A stretch of DNA of 64,000 nucleotides from Cyanobacteriota bacterium (GTDB lineage: Bacteria > Cyanobacteriota > Cyanobacteriia > CACIAM-69d), in contig JAKRSF010000010.1 in assembly GCA_022402445.1 (NCBI GenBank), positions 1-64,000 on the forward strand. The letters run 5' to 3'. Shown here one piece after another: positions 49,370 through 50,976 of this stretch; the first letter of the stretch is position 1, and each line of letters starts with the position of its first letter. The notes beneath the pieces are model-generated. The model did not search any database. It was not told the origin of the DNA and was given only the letters and a program-made list of their open reading frames with translations. A program made the translations under genes and the position numbers.

Positions 49370-49606
49370 ATGCGTCACTACACCTCGACCCTGCTGACCT
49401 CCCTGGCCCTGACCGCCGCGATCGCCTCCACCGGAGCATTCACCAGCGCCAGCGCCAGCGCCGCCGAAGTTCACCTGACCGCCGACTCTAGCCCCACTGC
49501 GATCGCCACGGAAACCTACAACACCCGCCAAAAGCGTCCCAGCTATCGGGGCAGCGGCCGCCGCGAAATCATGCGCTTCCTGGCGACGGATACCTACGGA
49601 GTCTAG
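49370..49606 (+). CDS. patX: PatX-like secreted RGSGR peptide precursor
   Basis: 78 residues. A signal peptide covers about residues 1-31 (TSTLLTSLALTAAIASTG, cut near ASASA-AE). The short mature part ends in YRGSGRREIMRFLATDTYGV. Residues 60-64 are exactly RGSGR, the PatS pentapeptide that binds HetR. PatX proteins are the RGSGR-bearing exported peptides found with HetR in filamentous cyanobacteria. hetR begins about 465 bases downstream on the same strand, so the pair is a signal and its receptor. The name rests on motif, size, signal and neighbour. Confidence 0.85.
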   Translation: MRHYTSTLLTSLALTAAIASTGAFTSASASAAEVHLTADSSPTAIATETYNTRQKRPSYRGSGRREIMRFLATDTYGV

Positions 49607-49746
49607 GGGAATTCGGGCAGTCGGCCCCCAACCCATGGCCAACCGTAGGGCCAGTTCCACCGCTCCCATCGGCCCGCCCAGATCCGGACAAAAACGGGCG
49701 ATCGCCGCGAAGTCCATCAACAAAAATTGATAAGCCGACCGGGGGG

Positions 49747-49765
49747 ACAGACTCATGCAGTCTGT
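49747..49765. promoter_or_regulatory. palindromic candidate operator upstream of hetR
   Basis: ACAGACT (49747-49753) and AGTCTGT (49759-49765) are perfect 7-base arms around CATGC. The element ends 45 bases before the TATAAT box, a typical activator position. It does not resemble the NtcA consensus (GTA-N8-TAC). Confidence 0.55.
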
Positions 49766-49810
49766 AACCCTATTTCCGTAAAAATTCGCTGGAAACCGAA
49801 GGGGCGTGGC

Positions 49811-49816
49811 TATAAT
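49811..49816 (+). promoter_or_regulatory. candidate hetR promoter -10 element
   Basis: A perfect TATAAT (within GGCTATAATGGGCG) in G+C-rich sequence, about 250 bases before GTG 50071. No recognisable -35 at 16-18 bases, which fits an activator-dependent promoter using the palindrome upstream. Confidence 0.5.
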
Positions 49817-50070
49817 GGGCGTGACCGCGCGCGAGCTTGCGAAAAATAGAGCAACGGTGACCATGGATAACCATTTGCCCCGCCTTCACCGGGCCGCCGT
49901 TGGTTGATGAAATCTAGCCAGCCATTGACGCCGCGATCTTAAAGGTTCCCAAGGTTCCGGGCGCTGGTTTTGCCCCCGGTCCCCAGTTGTTCAAGCACCC
50001 AGGACACGAGGCTCTGTTGCTGCACTCTTCCCCGCCTTCCACCGATTCCCAGCCGGTTTCCCCCCAGCCG

Positions 50071-50976
50071 GTGAAGGATGCTGAACTGATTCGCCGCTTG
50101 AGCTCAAGCGCCATGGACGAGATTCTGATGTTTCTCGCTTCGAGTGCCCTGCGGGGGAGTGGTCATCGCCATGGGGCGTTTTTGGATGCGGCGGCGACGG
50201 CGGCAAAGTGCGCAATTTATATGACCTATTTGGAGCAGGACTGTAACCTGCGCCATACGGGCTATTTGCACCACATCGAGCCGAAGCGGGTTAAGGCGAT
50301 CGTCGAGGAGGTGCGCCAAGCCCTGACGGAGGGCAAGCTGCTGAAGATGTTGGGTTCCCAGGAGCCCCACTATCTAATTCAGCTACCGGCCCTGTGGCTG
50401 GAGCGCTATCCCTGGCATCCGCCCCAGTCGCGCATTGCTAGCAGCAGCCTCAACCGCCGCGAGAAGCAGCATCTGGAAGGGAAGTTGCCGGAGGATTTGC
50501 CGGATGCCCAGGCGATTAATTCGTTCCAGTTTTTGGAGCTGATCGAGCAGTTGCACCGGCGATCGCAGGAGGATCTGTCGGCGGATCGTCAGATGCCCCT
50601 GAGTGAGGCGCTGACGGAGCACATTAAGCGGCGGCTGCTGCATTCGGGGACGGTGGCGCGGATCGACTCGCCCTGGGGGATGCCGTTCTACGCCCTGACG
50701 CGCCAGTCCTACTGGACGCCGGATGATGAGGAGGTGCGGACCTATACGGCGGTGGAGGATACGGCCCAGTTTTTCCGGCTGATGCGGGATTGGGCGGAGC
50801 GGCGATCGGGGTCGTTCCGGGCGGTGGAGGCGTTGGATATTCCCCGCGATCGCGTGGAGACGGCCCTCAATGATCTCGATACGCTCCTGCGGGAGTGGGC
50901 GGATCGCTACCATGACCCGACGGGTGGTGAGCCGGTGGTGCTGCATTTGGCGGTGGGGGAGCGGCAGGATCCGTAG
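50071..50976 (+). CDS. hetR: HetR, master regulator of cell differentiation
   Basis: 301 residues from GTG 50071, close to the 299 of Anabaena Het[45 protein letters not shown] starts the DNA-binding half (the Cys48 equivalent is residue 47). SFQFLELIE contains the conserved Ser152-type residue (151). [14 protein letters not shown] and the C-terminal hood follow. Arg250, Glu253, Asp256 and Asp270, which contact the RGSGR peptide in Anabaena, are all conserved at identical numbers. A longer form from TTG 49987 would add 28 non-conserved residues. No ribosome site is visible at either start. Confidence 0.97.

Follow-up and report, generated by a model that had tools for sequence, protein, structure and literature searches.

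Within a 64,000-nucleotide stretch of a cyanobacterial contig (hereafter, the window), a small gene for a predicted exported RGSGR precursor, patX, is followed on the same strand by hetR, and we consider it very likely that this locus holds the PatX-HetR signalling pair ancestral to filamentous cyanobacteria, here in a non-diazotrophic lineage. Both genes are single-copy, the promoter element, the pentapeptide and most binding residues are conserved, and neither nifH nor HetP was detected in the genome. The existence of the locus and the gene names first given to it are confirmed, and its receptor carries a natural change at position 254 that is worth testing. The presence of a patX-hetR pair in non-heterocystous filaments has already been published, the closest case being Leptolyngbya BL0902, in which both genes were deleted.

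We propose that a DIF1-like promoter probably drives patX, that the precursor would leave the cytoplasm through the Sec pathway and be shortened in the periplasm to roughly YRGSGR, and that this peptide would enter the same or a neighbouring cell and bind the HetR hood domain. Peptide-bound HetR would then leave the DNA, which would limit HetR-driven gene expression along the filament. We infer export, trimming, uptake, HetR binding and DNA release from work in other species: in filamentous species PatX occurs alongside HetR (PMC7761841), and in Nostoc it is exported and cleaved by PatP to about six residues, with HRGTGR binding HetR (PMC12756182). The controlled process would not be heterocyst formation. 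Likely targets are fragmentation of the filament, cell death (necridia) or the general expression of carbon and nitrogen genes, the first two having been put forward for non-heterocystous species (PMC12756182).

HetR and its peptide-binding residues

The hetR gene (50071-50976, plus strand) encodes 301 amino acids from a GTG start. Its product has full-length S48 (Pfam PF03574, 2.9e-73) and HetR_C hood (PF18460, 5.1e-27) domains, is homologous to solved HetR structures (phmmer vs 3qod, 3.5e-133), and is 70-73% identical to the HetRs of family relatives. Against the equivalog model NF009718 it scored 484 bits (E 1.7e-145) with a cut-off of 489, and scores below this cut-off were also found for one Limnothrix-genus genome and for other divergent HetRs. 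In alignments, GTG 50071 is the likely start, and is preferred over a TTG at 49987, since both the relatives and the solved HetRs start at this position. With this start, R223, R250, E253, D256, D270 and D278 bear their Anabaena numbers. The Anabaena HetR sequence used for numbering agrees with the solved HetR chains.

In the structure of the hood bound to PatS6, the peptide arginines touch E253, D270′ and D278′, the serine touches E253, and the N-terminal amino group binds to E254 and D256, with R223 close to the peptide C-terminus (PMC4649674). Five of these six residues are kept in the window HetR (R223, E253, D256, D270 and D278), and E254 is replaced by Ala. The initial annotation had listed Arg250, Glu253, Asp256 and Asp270 as peptide contacts conserved at identical numbers and had argued from them that binding should be retained. 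All four are indeed conserved, but Arg250 is not among the contacts named in the structure paper (PMC4649674), and the argument was incomplete: most contacts are kept, but the one that it omitted, Glu254, is the one that has changed. An E254A substitution in Anabaena HetR raises the Kd from 12 to 91 nM, about 8-fold weaker, and excess peptide still releases the DNA (PMC4649674); the rest of the window HetR also differs from the Anabaena context of that measurement. Because Glu254 is Ala here, YRGSGR may bind with somewhat lower affinity than in Anabaena, and the binding should remain functional.

Among the loci compared, two divergent HetRs with 49% identity (L073 and L117; G163 and G237) lack R223, D270 and D278, have no RGSGR ORF upstream of hetR and are possibly peptide-blind.

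Linkage of patX and hetR

The stop codon of patX and the start of hetR, both on the plus strand, are 464 bp apart, and no gene was recognised in this gap. The order and strand first described for the pair are thus correct, and hetR lies "immediately" downstream only in the sense of the next gene across 464 bp. In a class-wide sample, a patX-like ORF with RGSGR precedes hetR on the same strand by no more than 2.5 kb in most non-Nostocales loci, and in genus g3 of the same family patX is 1.1-1.4 kb upstream. No RGSGR ORF was found near hetR in Limnothrix, where a clear patX orthologue lies elsewhere in the genome (L159-L161), and adjacency is therefore common but not required. The Limnothrix patX region contains genes for a PilT-like ATPase and an alpha/beta hydrolase and a ScpB-like gene (named by eye). 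Linked or not, patX and hetR co-occur in all six family members sampled. The ancient association in filamentous cyanobacteria that had been claimed for the pair is supported.

A divergent neighbour of patX (47657-49150, minus strand) encodes an S41/CtpA-type periplasmic peptidase with Pfam S41 and PDZ domains. We considered it as a PatX processor and dropped it because it stands beside hetR in few lineages: an S41 peptidase occurs near hetR in only 16 of 233 loci (stretches compared), several of these being 25-27% identical and usually on the other side. It is probably incidental to patX and not part of the system.

The pair in Leptolyngbya sp. BL0902 (GFS31_32390-32400; PMC11298460) resembles the one described here in that patX directly precedes hetR, with both on one strand and a DIF1-type promoter before patX, in a filamentous organism with no nif cluster found. 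BL0902 has three hetR-like genes (PMC11298460), whereas the genome studied here has one, together with a 464-bp intergenic gap, TCCTGA as the DIF1-like element and the Glu254 to Ala change. Deletions of patX and hetR in BL0902 alter hundreds of transcripts, and the transcriptional effects of PatX looked largely HetR-independent (PMC11298460), which is the main evidence against a simple model of peptide inhibiting HetR in non-heterocystous species.

These deletions, the lost linkage in Limnothrix and the loss of Glu254 in the window HetR are what could be expected if both genes were real but uncoupled, with PatX using another receptor, HetR regulated otherwise and their adjacency merely inherited. 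We regard such an uncoupling as distinctly unlikely, since this HetR retains E253, D270, D278 and R223, the contacts regarded as essential, since none of the 145 HetRs compared departs from E253 or R250, and since both genes are present in each of the six family members. A PatX-HetR signalling pair is our preferred reading.

The PatX precursor and its promoter

The patX gene (49370-49606, plus strand) encodes a 78-residue precursor with YRGSGRR at residues 59-65; residues 60-64, which form the RGSGR pentapeptide, are encoded at 49547-49561 on the plus strand, and a YRGSGR pattern match falls at 49544-49560. The length, coordinates and strand of the ORF and the position of RGSGR were confirmed from the sequence as first described. 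Its identification as PatX is likewise supported, by a match at cut-off to the NCBIfam model NF047413, "heterocyst-inhibiting protein PatX" (E 6.8e-7, 30.0 bits; cut-off 30), and by orthologues. In a six-frame search of the genome the same model gave patX 29.0 bits, slightly below the cut-off, and a Pfam profile search of the ORF gave no match. The N-terminus, judged by eye, resembles a Sec signal peptide (MRHYTSTLLTSLALTAAIASTG...SASA/AEV). A lack of conserved RGSGR in orthologues had been named as a refuting result; the pentapeptide is instead retained in five of the five family relatives examined, with RGSGRR and a short basic-hydrophobic tail in common and an overall identity of 25-31%. 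At the genomic sites examined there was no second PatX and no other small exported RGSGR protein; other genomic RG(S/T)GR words were rejected as chance or housekeeping occurrences, in unrelated or very short frames, one of them ribosomal-protein-like. Phage and plasmid records gave no match. In some other lineages (L072, L101, L290, L293, L104, L178 and others), PatX carries 3 to 9 tandem RGSGR copies and looks like a multi-copy peptide precursor.

A DIF1-like element precedes patX (49309-49338, plus strand) and consists of TTCCTGA (49309-49315) followed by AGAAGGA (49332-49338), with the TCC of TCCTGA starting 60 nt upstream of the ATG. The bipartite motif TTCCTGA-N14-20-AGAAGGA has exactly one copy in this genome and one in each of four relatives, and in every case placed it lies upstream of patX. 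Across the larger set, TCC[T/G]GA occurs at -40 to -85 of 131 of 137 patX genes and in 10 of 136 control windows (a 45-nt window of the same patX genes, equal in width to the search window), mostly 57-64 nt ahead of the ATG in the 137 genes examined. The classic DIF1 form, TCCGGA, is found in the f32 genomes (Nostocales) and two f22 genomes, and TCCTGA in the remaining 114. The two forms (TCCGGA in f32 and f22, e.g. L270 and L080; TCCTGA in most non-Nostocales patX genes) differ by one base at the same place, and in one of the two f22 genomes with TCCGGA no HetP was found. Elhai and Khudyakov (2018) reportedly describe a DIF1 motif as generally preceding patX genes, and their criterion is said to be a DIF1-type motif within roughly 69 nt ahead of the start codon; the TCCTGA of the window, at -60, lies inside that distance.

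The possibility that the small ORF is a chance RGSGR-bearing reading frame draws on its model score, no higher than the cut-off, and on its low overall identity to orthologues, and is already contradicted by conservation: RGSGRR is kept in relatives, the N-terminus is signal-peptide-like, the position and strand fit, and the DIF1-like element occurs once per genome, upstream of patX. With both pentapeptide and upstream element conserved, we consider a chance match very improbable and treat the ORF as patX.

No NtcA-type GTA-N8-TAC site was found near patX, a consensus promoter and terminator scan of the locus found nothing, and an exact TCCGGA at 49683 was rejected as a signal because its frequency is at chance level. 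A TATAAT at 49811-49816 (plus strand) could be the -10 box if hetR has a promoter of its own; the scan showed no -35, and the candidate is weak because the consensus scan gave no sigma-70 site. At many other loci (e.g. L257, L212, L283, L252), and not in the window, the patX 5′ leader has an inverted repeat downstream of the promoter element and ahead of the ATG, the sequence of which varies and the complementarity of which is kept (CGTATCAG...CTGATACG, TCTGAATCA...TGATTCAGA); perfect stems of at least 6 were present in 32% of patX leaders and 10% of shuffles.

A lineage without detectable nifH or HetP

The source genome (4.08 Mb in 13 contigs, 99.93% complete) belongs to the family of Limnothrix, and we compared it with five other family members from two other genera. 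A search for nif and hetP genes had been proposed as a check. The best genome match to the nifH model TIGR01287 reached 219.6 bits with a cut-off of 394, as would be expected of the related ChlL protein; only ChlL-like matches were obtained, and no family member among the six genomes exceeded the cut-off. A profile search detected the HetP family in none of the six, and was positive in five of seven control cyanobacterial genomes, including all four f32 genomes. In a genome this complete, the lack of detectable nifH and HetP rules out heterocysts in practice, and the lack of a detectable nitrogenase gene implies that the pair has a role other than spacing nitrogen-fixing cells, in line with the earlier suggestion of a function outside heterocysts. 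Control of diazotrophic cell differentiation, which the same genes exert over heterocysts in Nostocales (PMC7761841), is almost certainly not their role here, given the results for nifH and HetP in this genome and its five relatives.

Anabaena (Nostoc) PCC 7120 shares with this lineage a small exported PatX (here predicted to be so) with an RG(S/T)GR core, a HetR with a hood domain and a DIF1-type promoter, but has HRGTGR as its peptide, possesses PatS and HetN too, and uses the system for heterocyst spacing (PMC7761841, PMC12756182). The lineage studied here has instead YRGSGR, adjacent patX and hetR, and no nifH or HetP found.

Possible co-variation between peptide and receptor

Limnothrix, the sister genus (e.g. 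Limnothrix sp. CACIAM 69d; L159-L161, L172), has the same RGSGRR and basic tail, the same promoter element, one HetR and no nifH or HetP found, and differs in its unlinked patX, in a His at the position preceding RGSGR (-1) and in keeping Glu254. Genus g3 also combines His with Glu254, together with D256E. Within the family, Tyr at -1 and Ala254 therefore occur together in the window genus alone, and it is conceivable, if on balance rather unlikely, that peptide and receptor shifted together there, -1 from His to Tyr and HetR 254 from Glu to Ala.

Of 138 HetR-PatX pairs, 16 have lost Glu254, and in 13 of those 16 no RGSGR is preceded by His; among the 122 pairs that keep Glu254, 32 lack this His; the association (Fisher p 3e-5) is inflated by kinship among the 138 pairs. 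When independent losses were counted on a HetR tree from which column 254 had been left out, there were seven; six of them fall where -1 is not His, a state that covers 38% of the branch length (nominal p = 0.014). Column 254 ties for first with one other among 153 columns, which is not significant after correction, and the hypothesis arose from a first locus set that is part of the same data as the larger test, in which the link became stronger. Twenty further loci held no new Glu254 loss, so that they neither replicated nor refuted the link. The alignment of PatX and HetR for co-evolution that had been advised thus yielded a nominal link (six of seven losses) and no replication in 20 loci. 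The identity of the first PatS6 residue was reported to be irrelevant to binding (PMC4649674), which weakens the mechanistic case for co-variation. We treat the signal as a suggestive, unreplicated lead from aligned residues.

Implications

The role of PatX and HetR in filaments without heterocysts has been called a mystery (PMC11298460), and the present genome offers a simple test case, with one hetR, one patX, no nifH and no HetP found. It carries a natural change at binding residue 254, the effect of which has already been measured in Anabaena, and Limnothrix provides a matched comparison, with the same genes unlinked and the usual Glu254. If the co-variation lead is true, paired changes at 254 and -1 would tune the affinity or separate the signals of PatX-HetR pairs across cyanobacteria.
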